This document shows, one piece after another, positions 10,205 to 32,395 of a DNA stretch of 32,781 nucleotides; position 1 is the stretch's first letter, and each line of letters opens with the position of its first letter. This DNA comes from Deltaproteobacteria bacterium (GTDB lineage: Bacteria; Desulfobacterota; Binatia; UBA9968). The stretch is taken from positions 1 to 32,781 of the forward strand of contig JACPAM010000108.1 in assembly GCA_016180805.1 (NCBI GenBank), written 5' to 3'. Under the pieces are notes generated by a model. It ran no database searches. It was not told the DNA's origin and saw only the letters and a list, made by a program, of their open reading frames with translations. The position numbers and the translations under genes were made by a program.

Positions 10205-10708
10205 CTATTCGACCACGAGGAGAACAGCTCCCGCCTCGGCGGCGTCGCCAGCCTTCACTCGGATCTCCTTAACCTCGCCGCTAATCGGAGACCGCACCTC
10301 GTTTTCCATCTTCATGGCCTCGACGATCACGAGCCCTTGACCTTTTTCCACCCGGTCCCCTTCCGCGACGAGGACGGCGATGATTTTCCCCGGCATCGGC
10401 ACCGAAATCTCCTGCCGCCCCTCGACCAGAATCCCCGCCTGTAGCCCGCCCAGCCGCATGCGCCGCTCGTCGACCAGCTCAACGTGATAGCTCCTCCCGT
10501 CCACGAGGACACTGTACTCGTCCTCCGCCACGTCGACATCGACCTCAAAGGAGCGGTTATCGACGATCAGGGAGTAGCCACTCAGGCCGGTCTTTTTCCC
10601 GTCGACCAGAAATTCATTGCCGTCAACGGAAACCCGGTAGTGTGACCTGCCGATCTCTTCGATCTCGACCGTGAACGTTTGATCGCCCAGCCTGGCGATG
10701 AAAGCCAT
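10205..10708 (-). CDS. Biotin carboxyl carrier protein of an acyl-CoA carboxylase
   Basis: 167 aa. Biotinylation motif [23 protein letters not shown] at the C-terminus. Confidence 0.93.
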
Positions 10709-10717
10709 AACTCTCCT

Positions 10718-12256
10718 CTATCTTCTCCGGCCGCGGCCCGAAAAACCGCCCCTCTGCCTGAGCGGCTCGAGTTTTCCGGCCTCTCGCCACAACGACCTTT
10801 CGCCCGCCCCCTTCTCCAGGAGTCGCAACGCCCGCTCTTGCTCCCGATGCAGGGCCGCGATGGCCGCGGAGGCCAGGGCGATATCCTTATGCGGGTAAAG
10901 CTCCTCTTTCTGTGCCGAGCGATACTCGTCGTCAATGAAACCGGTGTTGAAATCACCGGCCATGAAACGGGGGTGGCGCAAGATCCATTGGTGGAACGGG
11001 ATATTGGTCTTGATGCCCCGCACCTGGTATTCCCTGAGCGCCCGACGCATACGCATGATCGCCTCGATGCGGTTTTCTCCCCAGATGATCAGCTTGGCGA
11101 TCATCGGGTCATAGTAGATGGGCACCGCGGCCCCCTCGTAAACGCCGCAATCGTTTCGTATACCCAGGCCCTCGGGAAGCCTGAGCCCCTCGATCTTCCC
11201 CGGACAGGGCATGAAGTCGTTCTCGGGATCTTCGGCGTAGATGCGGCACTCGATGGCATGGCCGGTGTGGCTGATGTGGCGCTGACGCCACGGCAAATAG
11301 CCGCCGGCCGCGACTTCGATCTGCGCCTTAACCAGATCGATCCCCACGACTCTCTCCGTGACCGCGTGCTCCACCTGCAGGCGGGTGTTCATCTCGAGAA
11401 AGTAAAAATCTCCGTCTCGGTCGACGAGAAACTCGAGCGTCCCGGCGCCGACGTACCGAAGGGCGCGGGACCCACGGACCGCAAGCTTTCCGAGCCGCCG
11501 GCGCATCCGGTCGTCCAGCGCAGGCGCGGGACACTCTTCGATGATTTTTTGGTGGCGCCTCTGAATGGAGCATTCCCGATCGTACAGATGAACCACCTTG
11601 CCGTACTGATCAGCCAGAATCTGAACCTCAACATGCCGCGCCCGCTCGAGGTATTTCTCGATATAAAGCCGCGGGTCGCCAAAAGACGAGGCGGCCTCGG
11701 AGCGGACCGCCCGGTAAGCGGACCGAATCGCCCGCGGAGAGCGAACCAGCCTCAGCCCCTTACCCCCGCCGCCAGCGACCGCTTTCAGCATAAACGGATA
11801 GCCGATGGTTTCCGTCGCCTGGGCGACTTCTTCCTCTGAATTCAATACCCCATCGGAGCCGGGAACGACCGGAATTTCCGCCGCCTTCATGAGCGCGCGC
11901 GCTTTGACCTTATCCCCCATCTGCTCGATCGCTTCGGGCGACGGCCCGATAAAGACGATGCCATGCTCTCTGCACGCGCGCGCGAACTCCGGGTTCTCGG
12001 CCAAGAATCCATACCCCGGGTGGATCGCTTCGACACCGCTCTTCTTGGCCACTTCCAGTATGCGGTCCATCGCCAGGTAGCTTTGCAGCGAGGGAGCGGG
12101 GCCAACCGGATAGGCGTAATCCGCGTATTTGACGTGGAGGGAGTCGCGATCGGCCTCGGAGTAGATGGCAACGCTTTCGATATCGAGCTCGCGGCACGCG
12201 CGCGTGATCCGAACCGCGATTTCACCCCGGTTGGCAATCAGAATGCGCTTAAACAT
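10718..12256 (-). CDS. accC: Acetyl/propionyl-CoA carboxylase biotin carboxylase subunit
   Basis: 512 aa. FKRILIANRGEIAVRITRACRELDIESVAIYSEAD, KAVAGGGGKGLR, EMNTRLQVEHAVTE. Confidence 0.95.
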   Translation of the reverse strand: MFKRILIANRGEIAVRITRACRELDIESVAIYSEADRDSLHVKYADYAYPVGPAPSLQSYLAMDRILEVAKKSGVEAIHPGYGFLAENPEFARACREHGIVFIGPSPEAIEQMGDKVKARALMKAAEIPVVPGSDGVLNSEEEVAQATETIGYPFMLKAVAGGGGKGLRLVRSPRAIRSAYRAVRSEAASSFGDPRLYIEKYLERARHVEVQILADQYGKVVHLYDRECSIQRRHQKIIEECPAPALDDRMRRRLGKLAVRGSRALRYVGAGTLEFLVDRDGDFYFLEMNTRLQVEHAVTERVVGIDLVKAQIEVAAGGYLPWRQRHISHTGHAIECRIYAEDPENDFMPCPGKIEGLRLPEGLGIRNDCGVYEGAAVPIYYDPMIAKLIIWGENRIEAIMRMRRALREYQVRGIKTNIPFHQWILRHPRFMAGDFNTGFIDDEYRSAQKEELYPHKDIALASAAIAALHREQERALRLLEKGAGERSLWREAGKLEPLRQRGGFSGRGRRR

Positions 12257-12257
12257 G

Positions 12258-12313
12258 AATAGGCATAAGGCAATAGTTCTGAAGCCCCTGTTGCCTACTG
12301 CCTGTTGCCTTCC
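12258..12313. repeat. Degenerate palindromic spacer element (AGGCATAAGGCAATAG ... CTGTTGCCTACTGCCT)
   Basis: Inverted arms between the biotin carboxylase and carboxyltransferase genes; a related sequence recurs near 17709-17776. Confidence 0.5.
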
Positions 12314-13864
12314 TTAGAGGGGGATATTCCCATGTTTCTTGGGCGGGTTTTGATCCCTTTTGTTCTTTAACATCTCCAGGGAGCGAATCAGCATAGGTCG
12401 GGTCTCCTCCGGATAAATGACGGCATCCACGTAACCGAGCTCTGCTGCCTTGAAAGGGTTGGCGAAGTTGCGGCGGTAGTTCTCGGTGAGCTCCTCCCGA
12501 GTTCTGACCGGGTCTTGAGATTTTTCCAGGGCGTCGCGAAAGATGATATTGATCGCGCCTTCGGGACCCATGACCGCAATCTCCCCTGTGGGATAAGCCA
12601 GATTGACGTCCCCCCTCAGATGCTTGCTCGACATGACGATGTAGGCGCCGCCGTACGCCTTGCGGGTGATGACCGCCACCTTGGGCACGGTCGCCTCGGC
12701 GTAGGCGTAGAGCAGCTTCGCCCCGTGGCGGATGATGCCCTGATATTCCTGCGCCGCTCCGGGCAAGAAGCCGGGGACATCGACAAAGCTGAGGAGCGGG
12801 ATATTGAAGCAGTCGCAGAAGCGGATGAAGCGGGCTGCCTTGGCGGAGGCGTCTATGTCCAGGCAGCCGGCGAGATGGGCGGGCTGATTCGCGACCAAGC
12901 CTACGGGCCTTCCTCCCAGCCGGGCAAAGCCGATGATGATGTTGCGGGCAAAGTCACGTTGCACCTCGTAGAAGTAGCCCTCATCCACCACGGCCAAGAT
13001 CAGCTCCTTCATGTCGTATGGCCGGGTGGGATTATCCGGAATCAGATCATTGAGCCTCCGGTCGCGTCTGAGCGGATCGTCGTCCGTCGGATGAAACGGC
13101 GGGTCCTCCTGGTTGTTGCTCGGCAAAAACCCCATCAGCTCCCGAATCATCACAAGGCATTCCTTCTCGCTCTCCGCGGCAAAATGCGCGACCCCGCTTT
13201 TTGCATTGTGCGTCTGACTTCCACCCAGATCTTCCTTCGTCACCTCTTCATGAGTCACCGCCTTGATCACGTCCGGACCGGTGATGAACATGTAGCTGTT
13301 GGCCTTCACCATGAAGATAAAATCCGTGATCGCCGGTGAGTAAACCGCCCCCCCGGCGCACGGGCCCAGGATGGCCGAGATTTGCGGGATAACGCCGGAG
13401 GCCAGGACGTTGCGTAAAAAAATATCGGCGTAGCCGGCCAGACTCACCACTCCCTCCTGGATCCGCGCGCCGCCGGAATCGTTGATCCCCACGATCGGCG
13501 CACCGTTCTTCATTGCCAGATCCATCACCTTACCGACCTTCTCCGCCACGACCCCGCTCAAGCTGCCGCCAAAGACCGTGAAATCCTGAGAGTAGACGTA
13601 AACGAGCCTGCCATCGATGGCGCCGTAGCCGGTCACGACGGCGTCGCCGGGGATTTTTTTCGCTGCCATGTCAAAGTCGGCGCAGCGGTGGGTCTTAAAA
13701 CGGTCCAGCTCGACGAAACTCCCGTGGTCGAGAAGGATCTCGAGCCGCTCGCGCGCCGACAGTTTTCCCTGCTCATGCTGCCGCCGGATCCTCTCTTCTC
13801 CACCACCCGCTGCGGCCTGCCGGTTAAGCTCGCGAAACCGCTCCAAGTTATCTTTCAGCGCCAT
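12314..13864 (-). CDS. Acyl-CoA (propionyl/methylcrotonyl-type) carboxylase carboxyltransferase subunit
   Basis: 516 aa. [82 protein letters not shown]. Confidence 0.95.
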
Positions 13865-14036: not shown

Positions 14037-15212
14037 GTGGCACGACGGAAAAAGAACCAGCCTGCCAAGAAGACCCGATCCATCCCGCCGGGCGCAAGAG
14101 CATTGCTGATCTACTCGACCAGCGAGGGAGATTCCAACATGCTCTACGCCACCGGCTTTTTCGTTCCGGACCCCTTCATCTTCCTCAAGCACCGGGGCAG
14201 GAAATACGTGGTCATGAGCGACTTGGAGATCGATCGCGCCAAAAAGCAGGCGCAGGTCGATCACGTCTTACCTCTGTCGTCCTACCAGGAGCGGCTGCGG
14301 AAGTCGGGGAAAACTAGCCCCACGACAGGGGACGTCCTGGAACTGCTCTTCCGGGAGCGCTCCGTTAGGTTGCTCCTGATCCCGCCGAATTTCCCCGTGC
14401 AGCTCGCTGACGACTTAAGGTCGAGAGGCTTCCTCGCGCACATCAACGATCCGATCTTTCCGGAGCGCGAGCGAAAAAGGGCGGAGGAGATCAAAAGTAT
14501 TCGCGAGTCACTCAGGGTGGCCGAGCTGGGACTCCATGCCGGAATCCAGGCTCTGCAGCAAGCCACGATCGGTCCCGACCGCTATCTCTATCTGAACGGC
14601 TCCCGCCTGACGTCGGAGAAACTCAAAAGCATCGTGAACACGGCCATCATGGCTCAGGGTTGGGTTCCTAGCCACACGATCATCGCCTCGGGAAACCAAT
14701 GCTGCGATCCCCATCATGAGGGGAGCGGCCCGATCAAAGCGGACACCTCCATCATTTTCGACATCTTTCCCCGCTCGCAAAAGACCGGCTATTTCGGGGA
14801 CCTGAGCCGTACGGTCGTCCGGGGACAGGCATCCGAGCGTCTCAAGGAAGCCTACGCCGCGGTTTTGGCAGGCCAGGAGCTCGCCTTCCGGCTGATTCGG
14901 GACGCGGTGAGCGGCAACGAAATTCATCAGAAGATCCTCGCGCTCTTCGACAAGCGCGGTTTTCGGACCGGCAAGATCGGCGGCCGCATGCAGGGGTTTT
15001 TCCACGGCACCGGACACGGCCTCGGTCTCGATATCCACGAGCCGCCGCGTATCTCGCAAGCGCAGGCGACGCTGCGCGCCGGCCATGTGGTTACGGTCGA
15101 GCCCGGTCTTTACTATCCTGGCATGGGAGGAGTGCGCCTCGAGGACGTCGTCGTGGTGACCAAAAGAGGAAGCCGCAACCTCACCCGGTATCCGAAGTTC
15201 TTGGAGATATAG
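14037..15212 (+). CDS. M24-family aminopeptidase (Xaa-Pro peptidase-like)
   Basis: 391 aa, GTG start. DIFPRSQKTGYFGDLSRTVV, FFHGTGHGLGLDIHEPPRI, GHVVTVEPGLYYPGMGGVRLEDVVVV. Confidence 0.9.
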   Translation: MARRKKNQPAKKTRSIPPGARALLIYSTSEGDSNMLYATGFFVPDPFIFLKHRGRKYVVMSDLEIDRAKKQAQVDHVLPLSSYQERLRKSGKTSPTTGDVLELLFRERSVRLLLIPPNFPVQLADDLRSRGFLAHINDPIFPERERKRAEEIKSIRESLRVAELGLHAGIQALQQATIGPDRYLYLNGSRLTSEKLKSIVNTAIMAQGWVPSHTIIASGNQCCDPHHEGSGPIKADTSIIFDIFPRSQKTGYFGDLSRTVVRGQASERLKEAYAAVLAGQELAFRLIRDAVSGNEIHQKILALFDKRGFRTGKIGGRMQGFFHGTGHGLGLDIHEPPRISQAQATLRAGHVVTVEPGLYYPGMGGVRLEDVVVVTKRGSRNLTRYPKFLEI

Positions 15213-27752: not shown

Positions 27753-29366
27753 ATGCGCCTGGCACCTGCCCTGACGTTCAAGATAGCATCTGAGGAAGGG
27801 GAATTTGACCAAATTCACAGGCTCAACTACGCCACCTTCGTACAAGAAATTCCGCAGCACGAGCCAAGCCTGAATGAGAAGCTGGTCGATAAATTCCACG
27901 GCGAGAACAAATACATCATCTGTCTGCGGAACCACCTAGTCATCGGTATGATTGCGGTCCGCGGCAAAAGGCCATTCTCACTGGACGAGAAGCTCGAGAA
28001 CCTGGACACCTATTTACCTCGCGGACGCTCCGTCTGCGAACTCCGCCTGCTCTCCGTGGAAAGAAACCACCGCACCGGCGTCGTTTTGAGGGGACTCCTC
28101 GAGCACATGTACCAGCATTGCAGGGGCCTGGGCTACAACCTCGCTGTCATTTCCGGTACCGTTCGCCAACAAAAGCTGTATCGGCATCTGGGCTTCGTTC
28201 CTTTCGGTCCCTTGGTCGGAACCCCCGAGGCCAGCTATCAACCGATGTACTTGACCCTCGAGAGTTTCGTGGGCAAGGCTTCCAGCCTATTCCGGCGGTC
28301 ATCGCGATCCACGACCGCACAATCCTCCGTAATCCTTTTACCGGGACCCGTCAGCATCAGACCGGACGTTCGACGGGCCTTGAGCGATCATCCCGTTTCG
28401 CATCGATCGGTGAGCTTTGCCGAGGACTTCAAGCAGACCAAACAAGCCCTTTGCGCCCTTGTCGGATCTCGTAACGTGGAGATCTTTATGGGTTCGGGAA
28501 CACTCGCGAACGACGTCATCGCCGCACAGATGTCTCTGGATCCTAAACCCGGTCTTATCCTCAGCAACGGGGAATTTGGCGAGCGGCTGATAGACCACGC
28601 ATCCCGGTTTGGTCTCTCTTTTGAGGCCCTCCGATATGACTGGGGTCGTCCCTTTGATCCCGACGACATCAAGCGTTGCCTTGATCGAACCCCGAGCATC
28701 GAATGGCTGTGGGCGGTCCATTGCGAGAGCTCGACCGGGCTTCTCAACAATCTGTCCATGTTAAAGGGGCTTTGCGCTAAAAAGGGCATACGGCTCTGCC
28801 TCGATTGCATCAGCTCCGTGGGCACAGTTCCTCTGGATCTGAGTGACGTCCATCTCGCCTCCGGAGTCAGCGGCAAAGGCCTCGCCGCGTTTTCAGGGCT
28901 CTCGATGGTATTTTATAATCACACCGTCCGCCCAGCGGCCGAGAGGTTGCCCAGGTACCTAGACCTGGGTCTCTACGCGAGCAACGACGGCATACCTTTT
29001 ACAGTTTCGTCAAACCTCGTCCACGCGCTGCAAAAATCCCTGACGGATTTCCAGCCCGAGACCCATTTTAAAAACCTCCAGGATCTCTCACGCTGGCTGA
29101 GGTCAACTCTTCACAGCATGGGGTTTCGTCTTGTGACGCGCGACGAACACGCCTCCCCGGCCATCATCGCGATCGCTCTGCGCGAGGAAATCCAGTCGGA
29201 GAATTTAGGGAGCCAGCTCGAGGAGGCCGGATACTTCCTGAGCTACAAAAGCCAATACCTGATCAATCGCAACTGGATACAAATATGCCTCATGGGAGAA
29301 TGCTCTCGGGAAAAACTTGCTCCCCTGCTCGACCTGCTGTGGCAACTCTATCCTCTTGCGCCGTAG
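27753..29366 (+). CDS. Fusion: N-terminal GNAT/N-acyl-amino-acid-synthase-like domain + class V PLP aminotransferase
   Basis: N-terminal ~175 aa GNAT-like (CELRLLSVERNHRTGVVLRGLLEHMYQHCRGLGYNLAVISGTVRQQKLYRHLGFVPFG). C-terminal class V aminotransferase (LLPGPVSIRPDVRRALSDHPVSHRSVSF, GSGTLANDVIAAQM, DCISSVGTVPLD, SGVSGKGLAAFSGLSMVF). Confidence 0.85.
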   Translation: MRLAPALTFKIASEEGEFDQIHRLNYATFVQEIPQHEPSLNEKLVDKFHGENKYIICLRNHLVIGMIAVRGKRPFSLDEKLENLDTYLPRGRSVCELRLLSVERNHRTGVVLRGLLEHMYQHCRGLGYNLAVISGTVRQQKLYRHLGFVPFGPLVGTPEASYQPMYLTLESFVGKASSLFRRSSRSTTAQSSVILLPGPVSIRPDVRRALSDHPVSHRSVSFAEDFKQTKQALCALVGSRNVEIFMGSGTLANDVIAAQMSLDPKPGLILSNGEFGERLIDHASRFGLSFEALRYDWGRPFDPDDIKRCLDRTPSIEWLWAVHCESSTGLLNNLSMLKGLCAKKGIRLCLDCISSVGTVPLDLSDVHLASGVSGKGLAAFSGLSMVFYNHTVRPAAERLPRYLDLGLYASNDGIPFTVSSNLVHALQKSLTDFQPETHFKNLQDLSRWLRSTLHSMGFRLVTRDEHASPAIIAIALREEIQSENLGSQLEEAGYFLSYKSQYLINRNWIQICLMGECSREKLAPLLDLLWQLYPLAP

Positions 29367-29539
29367 GCAGCCTCTGCCAGCATCCGATCAGGTCATTGTC
29401 GTCGTCAAGAACGGAGTCAAAAGGCACGGGCCAGAAAAGCGAACGCGCACGGGCACGAATGAGTTCAACGCGCGTATTCGGGGAAAAGTTGCAAGTCGAT
29501 GCTATGCGTGTTAGAAGCATAACTCTTTGGGAGGTGCGA

Positions 29540-30517
29540 ATGGACTACGAGAGCTTGGCTGCGAAGTCTCTCAGAGGAGAGCTGATCTCGCGGGAAGAGA
29601 TGCGAGCGGTCCTCAACGCTTCCGACGAGCGGTTGGCGGAGCTTCTGGACGGCGCTTTCAAGGTTCGGCGCCATTACTTCGGCAAGCGCGTTCAGATCCA
29701 TGTCCTCATGAACGCAAAGAGCGGGCTTTGCCCCGAAGACTGCCACTACTGCTCCCAATCCTCGATCTCCAAAGCTCCGATCGACAAATATCCGCTTCTA
29801 CCCAGGAAGAGGCTTCTCGAAGGCGCCTTTGAAGCCAAGGCTGCCGGGGCTGTACGCTACTGAATGGTCAACAGCGGCCGGGGGCCGACACACAAGGAAA
29901 TCGAGGAGATGGCCGAGGTGGTAAGGGAGATCAAGGAAAACGTCCCCATCAACATCTGCTGCTCGCTCGGCCTGATGAACCAAGAGAAGGCAGGAATTCT
30001 CAAGCAGGCTGGCGTGCAGCGCATCAACCATAACCTCAACACGAGCCGGCGTTTTTACGGAGAGATCTGCACCACGCACTCGTACGACGACCGTGTCGAG
30101 ACCGTCGCCAGCGTGCGGGCGGCGGGGCTTTCCCCGTGCTGCGGCGGCATCATCGGCATGGGGGAGACCGACGACGACATCATGGACATGGCGACGGCCC
30201 TGAGAGAGCTGGACGTGGATTCCATTCCGGTGAACTTCCTCCATGCGATCGACGGAACACCGCTGGCGGGGATGAATCATCGGAACCATCTTACGCCGCA
30301 GCGTTGTCTCAAAACGCTTTGCCTTTTCCGTTTTGTCAACCCGACCAAAGAGATTCGGGTCGCCGCGGGAAGGGAAATCAATCTTCGCTCGCTTCAGCCG
30401 ATGAGTCTCTACCCGGCCAATTCCATCTTCGTGAACGGCTACCTGACCACACCCGGTCAGAGGGCCACAGAGGCCCACCGGATGATCGAAGACCTGGGAT
30501 TTGAAATCGAAGAGTAA
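29540..30517 (+). CDS. bioB: Biotin synthase interrupted by a single in-frame TGA (29861-29863) at the [2Fe-2S] Cys position: selenoprotein candidate or point-mutated pseudogene
   Basis: Radical SAM CxxxCxxC (SGLCPEDCHYCSQS) in the first half; NHNLNTS, SPCCGGIIGMGET, DSIPVNFLHAIDGTPL, AAGREINLRSLQPM in the second. Both halves are in the same frame (29540 to 29864 = 108 codons). SD gggagg upstream. Confidence 0.93.
29875..29887 (+). promoter_or_regulatory. Compact hairpin CGGCC-GGG-GGCCG downstream of the bioB TGA (bSECIS candidate)
   Basis: The loop G residues lie 17-19 nt after the TGA. It may be incidental because it encodes the conserved SGRGP. Confidence 0.35.
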
Positions 30518-31990: not shown

Positions 31991-32395
31991 CTAGGTCTGC
32001 TGTGGATTTCCTTTCTCCCTCTCCCTGCCAGGGAGAGGGCTAGGGTGAGGGTTACTTAGAGCCTCCGCGATTACTTGTAGGACCGCTTCGATCTCTTCCG
32101 TTATATCGCTGTCCCAAAAGCGCAGCACCCGATAACCACGGCGCACCAGAAACGCAGACCGTCTCCGATCCGCTTCAGCTTGCACAGCATGCTGACCACC
32201 ATCCAACTCAACCACCAGGTGGCGTTCCACACAGCAAAAGTCAGCAATATAGTTGCCGATAGGGTGCTGGCGACGGAATTTTGCCCCGCAAAGCCGTCGC
32301 GCACGTAGACGTGCCCAAAGCCTGCGCTCCACATCGGTCTGATCACGGCGCAGCCGGCGAGCGCGATCCCGAAGTCTGGAGATTTTCGGCTTCAT
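31991..32395 (-). CDS. DUF559 domain protein (Vsr-like endonuclease-fold family)
   Basis: 134 aa. LRRDQTDVERRLWARLRARRLCGAKFRRQHPIGNYIADFCCVERHLVVELDGGQH...RRGYRVLRFWDSDI. The C-terminal HPSPLPGREREKG is encoded by the flanking repeat. Confidence 0.9.
   Translation of the reverse strand: MKPKISRLRDRARRLRRDQTDVERRLWARLRARRLCGAKFRRQHPIGNYIADFCCVERHLVVELDGGQHAVQAEADRRRSAFLVRRGYRVLRFWDSDITEEIEAVLQVIAEALSNPHPSPLPGREREKGNPQQT
32017..32051. repeat. REP-like palindrome + tail, copy 1
   Basis: CCCTCTCCCTGCCAGGGAGAGGGCTAGGGTGAGGG. Confidence 0.9.

Follow-up and report, generated by a model that had tools for sequence, protein, structure and literature searches.

An in-frame TGA at a cluster-ligand cysteine codon of a biotin synthase gene: a single-genome selenoprotein candidate from a selenocysteine-decoding lineage

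The biotin synthase gene (bioB) on contig JACPAM010000108.1 of a Deltaproteobacteria bacterium (GCA_016180805.1; Binatia, UBA9968) is interrupted by one in-frame TGA, at the codon where its relatives encode a cysteine ligand of the [2Fe-2S] cluster. This raises the question of whether the codon is read as selenocysteine (Sec) or marks a damaged or miscalled gene. We examined the locus within a window of 32,781 nucleotides (the whole stretch of DNA analyzed), together with the source genome (G000; 4.46 Mb, 339 contigs, 91% complete) and its relatives, of which the nearest named are "Deltaproteobacteria" or Candidatus Binatia metagenome-assembled genomes. On the sequence comparisons presented here, the proposal that the TGA is read as Sec to give a full-length Sec-BioB stands in even balance, as a single-genome candidate. 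The probabilities given to this and other readings are judgements, not calculated posteriors. The relevant features of the window are as follows.

29530-29534, plus strand: GGAGG, Shine-Dalgarno-like, 5 nt ahead of the ATG (from the sequence)
29540-30517, plus strand: bioB, frame complete except for one TGA (TIGR00433, radical SAM/BATS, 1R30 alignment)
29729-29752, plus strand: radical-SAM CxxxCxxC codons Cys64, Cys68 and Cys71, intact (invariant in 41 sequences)
29861-29863, plus strand: in-frame TGA at the equivalent of E. coli Cys97, a [2Fe-2S] ligand (alignments, homologue codons)
29864-30517, plus strand: open frame after the TGA, ATG-initial, 217 aa, possible reinitiation product (from the sequence)
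29875-29887, plus strand: candidate SECIS hairpin CGGCC-GGG-GGCCG (lax published model; background-level)
29957-29959, plus strand: Cys140, equivalent of E. coli ligand Cys128, intact (alignment)
30137-30139, plus strand: Cys200, equivalent of E. coli ligand Cys188, intact (alignment)
30356-30358, plus strand: Arg273, equivalent of E. coli ligand Arg260, intact (alignment)

The preliminary description reported a 978-nt bioB frame with a single TGA, and this is what we find: 29540-30517 (plus strand) holds 325 codons plus TAA, and its only internal stop is the TGA at codon 108 of 325, in the context ...AGAVRY-TGA-MVNSGRGP.... The read-through product is a full-length biotin synthase BioB with radical SAM and BATS domains, and scores 404.1 bits against TIGR00433 (cut-off 225). 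Aligned with HMMER to E. coli BioB (1R30), codon 108 falls on chain residue 120, which would be E. coli Cys97 on the assumption of a 23-residue tag in the chain; by the same count, codons 140, 200, and 273 correspond to Cys128, Cys188, and Arg260. Three of the four type I [2Fe-2S] ligands (Cys97, Cys128, Cys188, and Arg260) are present, and the Cys97 equivalent is UGA. The 1R30 alignment and the homologues (105 of 105 with Cys) agree with the original placement of the TGA at this ligand, and the radical-SAM motif, the other cluster cysteines, and the arginine are intact in the alignment, as first noted. A search of the source genome for a second bioB returned weak radical-SAM matches only, which disposes of an intact second copy as a complication. 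Elsewhere in the window, 10205-13864 reads, by sequence motifs, as biotin-dependent carboxylase genes. Two unrelated features were also noted: a FeeM/GNAT-type acyltransferase domain fused to a class-V aminotransferase domain (27753-29366, plus strand), and a short repeat (about 32016-32054) that has dozens of copies on both strands of G000 and its congener G298 and that sits here inside a stretch reading as a DUF559 gene (31991-32395).

Aligned with 40 relatives, the bioB product retains all of the 57 otherwise invariant positions downstream of the TGA and 27 of the 28 upstream. This and the reading of the frame uphold the earlier statement that the gene has no other lesion, and the lack of decay elsewhere in the frame means that any real lesion must be very recent. 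Ninety-four single substitutions in bioB create a stop, 20 of them a TGA, and 11 of those 20 fall at Cys codons; that a TGA lesion should land on Cys is thus unremarkable. A random nonsense lesion would produce TGA at a cluster-ligand Cys ~6% of the time, so the observed position is beyond single-lesion chance, though for one gene picked from many this is not overwhelming.

Comparison with relatives gives the Sec reading no recurrence. The equivalent of codon 108 is TGC or TGT in each of the 105 type-I-like homologues (identity of roughly 50% upward) in which it was read, and residue 108 is Cys in 40 of 40 aligned relatives. Outside this genome, no TGA was found at this codon among 151 genomes of the class, 297 of the phylum, and 80 GTDB loci; the proposed check for independent genomes sharing it was negative, and close relatives all have Cys. 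Among the bioB genes of 151 genomes of the class, 297 of the phylum, and 26 of the family, a search for in-frame stops yielded few cases. Besides the window TGA, these are the bioB of family member G302 (L148), whose frame is intact but for a TAA at aligned residue 307, and the decayed copies of G368 and G369. The G302 TAA is a real lesion or a sequence error. A TAA in G335 was considered as an internal lesion and rejected, as it is the ordinary stop codon. Neither bioB nor its neighborhood was found in the congener G297, and in G298 a 4339 bp contig stops within the neighboring regulator gene, breaking before bioB. The regulator gene adjoining the window bioB is 93% identical to that of G298, which indicates that the bioB contig belongs to the lineage. 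No BioB relative was found on viral contigs.

The genome is equipped to decode Sec, as all of tRNA-Sec, SelA, SelB, and SelD are present; selA, selB, selC, and selD, whose presence had been put forward as a check on the proposal, were each recovered. The tRNA-Sec has anticodon UCA and scores 78.8 bits (cut-off 47). There are two SelD genes (L129, G000:C185; L130, G000:C23), each with an in-frame TGA; one adjoins selB, and G298 likewise has two SelD genes. The formate dehydrogenase alpha subunit (FdhA) also has one in-frame TGA. Binning error as a source of the Sec genes was considered and rejected: SelB is 90-92% identical to that of both congeners and SelD has a TGA throughout the family wherever its N-terminal region is covered, so the Sec trait is the lineage's own.

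To place the bioB TGA among other interrupted genes, we carried out a census of gene-internal stops in G000, covering 1.17 of 4.46 Mb taken in stretches and selecting stops flanked on each side by coding potential in the same frame. Most hits proved to be junctions of neighboring genes (judged by eye, with 30 unclear ones resolved by Pfam). Nine gene-internal TGAs were confirmed, all at Cys positions (SelD twice, FdhA, AhpD-like twice, CopZ/MerP-like, peroxiredoxin-like, ThiD, and BioB), and none was confirmed at a non-Cys residue in the 1.17 Mb; other selenoprotein genes, a further check proposed at the outset, are thus found in this genome. The only other confirmed internal stops in the same 1.17 Mb were one TAG and no TAA. 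The TAG lies in a hydantoinase/oxoprolinase C-terminal domain (L299, G000:C72, 2798, minus strand) and is a real nonsense lesion or an error. These counts serve as a guide and give no rate, since the method is insensitive and the contigs carrying FdhA and SelD were chosen deliberately. Four of the genes are likely further selenoprotein genes of known types: the adjacent AhpD-like CxxU genes (L257, G000:C30, 4448 and 5111, minus strand), a CopZ/MerP-like UxxC gene (GMTUAFC; L274, G000:C47, 2331, minus strand), and a SelL-related peroxiredoxin-like UxxC gene (YWUAKC; L302, G000:C75, 13969, plus strand). The ThiD gene (L230, G000:C1, 14246-15208, minus strand; TIGR00097, 358 bits) has a single in-frame TGA (14408-14410) where HTHGTG[C]TFSAAIAA has its conserved Cys (read HTHGTGUTFSAAIAA). 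ThiD is absent from a published inventory of 119 selenoprotein families (PMC13188914). Its hairpin, GGCCA-GUU-UGGCC with the loop starting 25 nt downstream, resembles the lineage's other SECIS elements, and ThiD is a better SECIS case than BioB.

The bioB hairpin has a 5 bp stem and a GGG loop, a distance of 16 nt from UGA to loop, and a stability of -7.0 kcal/mol when folded alone. A published bacterial SECIS model specifies a loop of 3-9 nt, a stem of 4-16 bp, and a G in the first two loop positions, with a spacing of 16-37 nt and an MFE of -7.5 or lower (PMC13188914). Set against this lax model the bioB hairpin gives GGG, 5 bp, 16 nt, and -8.3, and background sequence and Cys homologues agree with the model as often. 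In the window's genes, 37% of random codons are followed by a lax-model structure of equal or greater stability. Under a stricter test (stem of at least 5 bp, G[G/U] loop), 13.5% of random codons pass, as do 17 of 105 Cys-coding bioB genes, two of them with the identical stem-loop; for this protein sequence and codon usage, the bioB hairpin has a 9% chance of arising. A GU-containing loop on a stem of at least 5 bp occurs in seven of the eight other recoded G000 genes, and 23 of 23 scored SelD sequences of the family also have GU in the loop; the bioB hairpin has none. One AhpD-like recoded gene has a 7-bp stem and no GU loop, which shows that the GU rule has exceptions. After the background and homologue controls, the hairpin was rejected as proof of a SECIS: it does not rise above background and differs from the other SECIS elements of the lineage.

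The TGA, its position, the intact flanking frame, the complete Sec machinery, and the other TGA-interrupted genes of selenoprotein type are direct observations. In the Sec reading, the TGA would be decoded by the organism's own SelA, SelB, SelC, and SelD, and the product would be a full-length BioB in which Sec stands in for one of the three Cys residues that hold the [2Fe-2S] cluster, the sacrificial sulfur donor. SelB would presumably be recruited by the short hairpin directly after the UGA; the selenolate would bind Fe in the thiolate's place, and the enzyme would still work. A likely route would be that TGC or TGT recently became TGA in a lineage rich in Sec, where GC-rich Ser-Gly-Arg-Gly-Pro codons may already have made a usable stem-loop before the change. 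Recoding is favored by the ~6% lesion chance together with a Sec-rich genome and an intact frame, by census TGAs that all fall at Cys, and by a sole bioB alongside what read as biotin-dependent carboxylase genes; the lack of recurrence, the lack of a convincing SECIS, and the real lesions in the family pull against it. Of the checks first proposed, those on sel genes, other selenoproteins, a second bioB, and further lesions support the interpretation; those on recurrence and close relatives do not, and neither does the hairpin.

A point lesion or a base-call/assembly error is a substantial possibility, if on the doubtful side. It would require one C/T-to-A change from TGC or TGT and could be a recent nonsense mutation in cells able to take up biotin, or exist in the assembly only; translation would stop after 107 residues. 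One base is enough, over half of the TGA routes lie at Cys codons, all relatives have Cys, the hairpin is at background level, and true lesions are known (the G302 TAA, the decayed G368 and G369 copies, the G000 hydantoinase TAG). Against this explanation are the census, with one TAG and no TAA versus nine TGAs all at Cys, the low frequency with which random stop lesions reach a cluster ligand, and the undecayed remainder of the frame, which leaves only a very recent lesion. A split gene seems improbable. Here translation would stop at the UGA and restart at the adjacent AUG (UGAAUG), and products 1-107 and 109-325 would assemble into a biotin synthase without the Cys97 ligand. The ATG does follow the TGA directly, both halves are conserved, and 8VDW and 8VCW, presumably type II biotin synthases, have Ser here, so the residue is not universal. 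The same ATG, however, is present in the Cys relatives L019 and L143 and so did not arise for reinitiation, no Shine-Dalgarno-like sequence lies close 5' of the ATG at 29864, and Cys108 is invariant among type-I-like relatives. Least probable of all is decoding of the UGA as Cys or another standard residue, in place of Sec, by a suppressor or near-cognate tRNA. Such decoding needs no SECIS and so agrees with the weak hairpin, but in the sampled contigs (about a quarter of the genome) the UCA anticodon occurs only in tRNA-Sec, tRNA-Cys is the usual GCA form with no suppressor tRNA-Cys(UCA), and TGA also serves as an ordinary stop in G000.

If the Sec reading is correct, biotin synthesis in the source organism depends on selenium, Sec is a ligand to a cluster taken apart and remade with each turnover, and nature has supplied a variant with which to probe sulfur handover by BioB's sacrificial cluster; the range of enzymes known to acquire Sec would also widen. 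A broader claim, that a Sec-ligated [2Fe-2S] BioB in a lineage with Sec also at ThiD's conserved Cys reflects the spread of Sec into non-redox enzymes of vitamin synthesis, is in our view nearly as apt to be right as wrong. If the Sec reading is incorrect, the locus shows how easily a one-base lesion mimics a selenoprotein in a truly Sec-decoding genome. The BioB of G000 may be the first biotin synthase to contain selenium: the initial description knew of no other, the 119 prokaryotic selenoprotein families inventoried in 2026 do not include Sec-BioB (PMC13188914), and none was found in the non-subscription literature searched. That absence from the inventory, and the mostly redox nature of known selenoproteins, count against Sec-BioB (PMC13188914), and under the rule of a Sargasso Sea study, which treated single-sequence cases as candidates only, owing to sequencing error (PMC1088965), it stays a candidate.

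Relative to type I BioB (E. coli, 1R30; TIGR00433), the window gene shares the CxxxCxxC motif, the BATS domain, and the equivalents of Cys128, Cys188, and Arg260, and differs in having UGA at the Cys97 equivalent, as does no relative examined. The best PDB sequence matches of the window BioB are 8VDW and 8VCW, which we take to be type II enzymes. These have Ser at the codon 108 site, whereas the window has UGA and its relatives Cys; as Cys is kept everywhere else in the lineage, the window BioB groups with type I at this site. Biotin synthase types, including type II with a [4Fe-5S] cluster, have been described (PMC11099021). Among predicted selenoproteins with Fe-S or metal ligands are the (2Fe-2S)-binding CopZ family (GxUC, CU) and NADH:ubiquinone oxidoreductase subunit E (PMC13188914). 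As in Sec-BioB, Sec is predicted there in a 2Fe-2S-binding protein, but the folds differ and the BioB cluster is a sulfur source consumed in the reaction. Radical-SAM selenoproteins are also known, in the TIGR04167 family and TrsS (PMC13188914). They share the radical SAM superfamily and an in-frame Sec codon with the window BioB, but belong to other families with other motifs and are not biotin synthases. In work by Bui et al. in 2006, E. coli BioB reportedly makes selenobiotin, the enzyme working with selenium in a cluster position; there the selenium would replace the inorganic cluster sulfide, whereas in Sec-BioB it would belong to a protein ligand.
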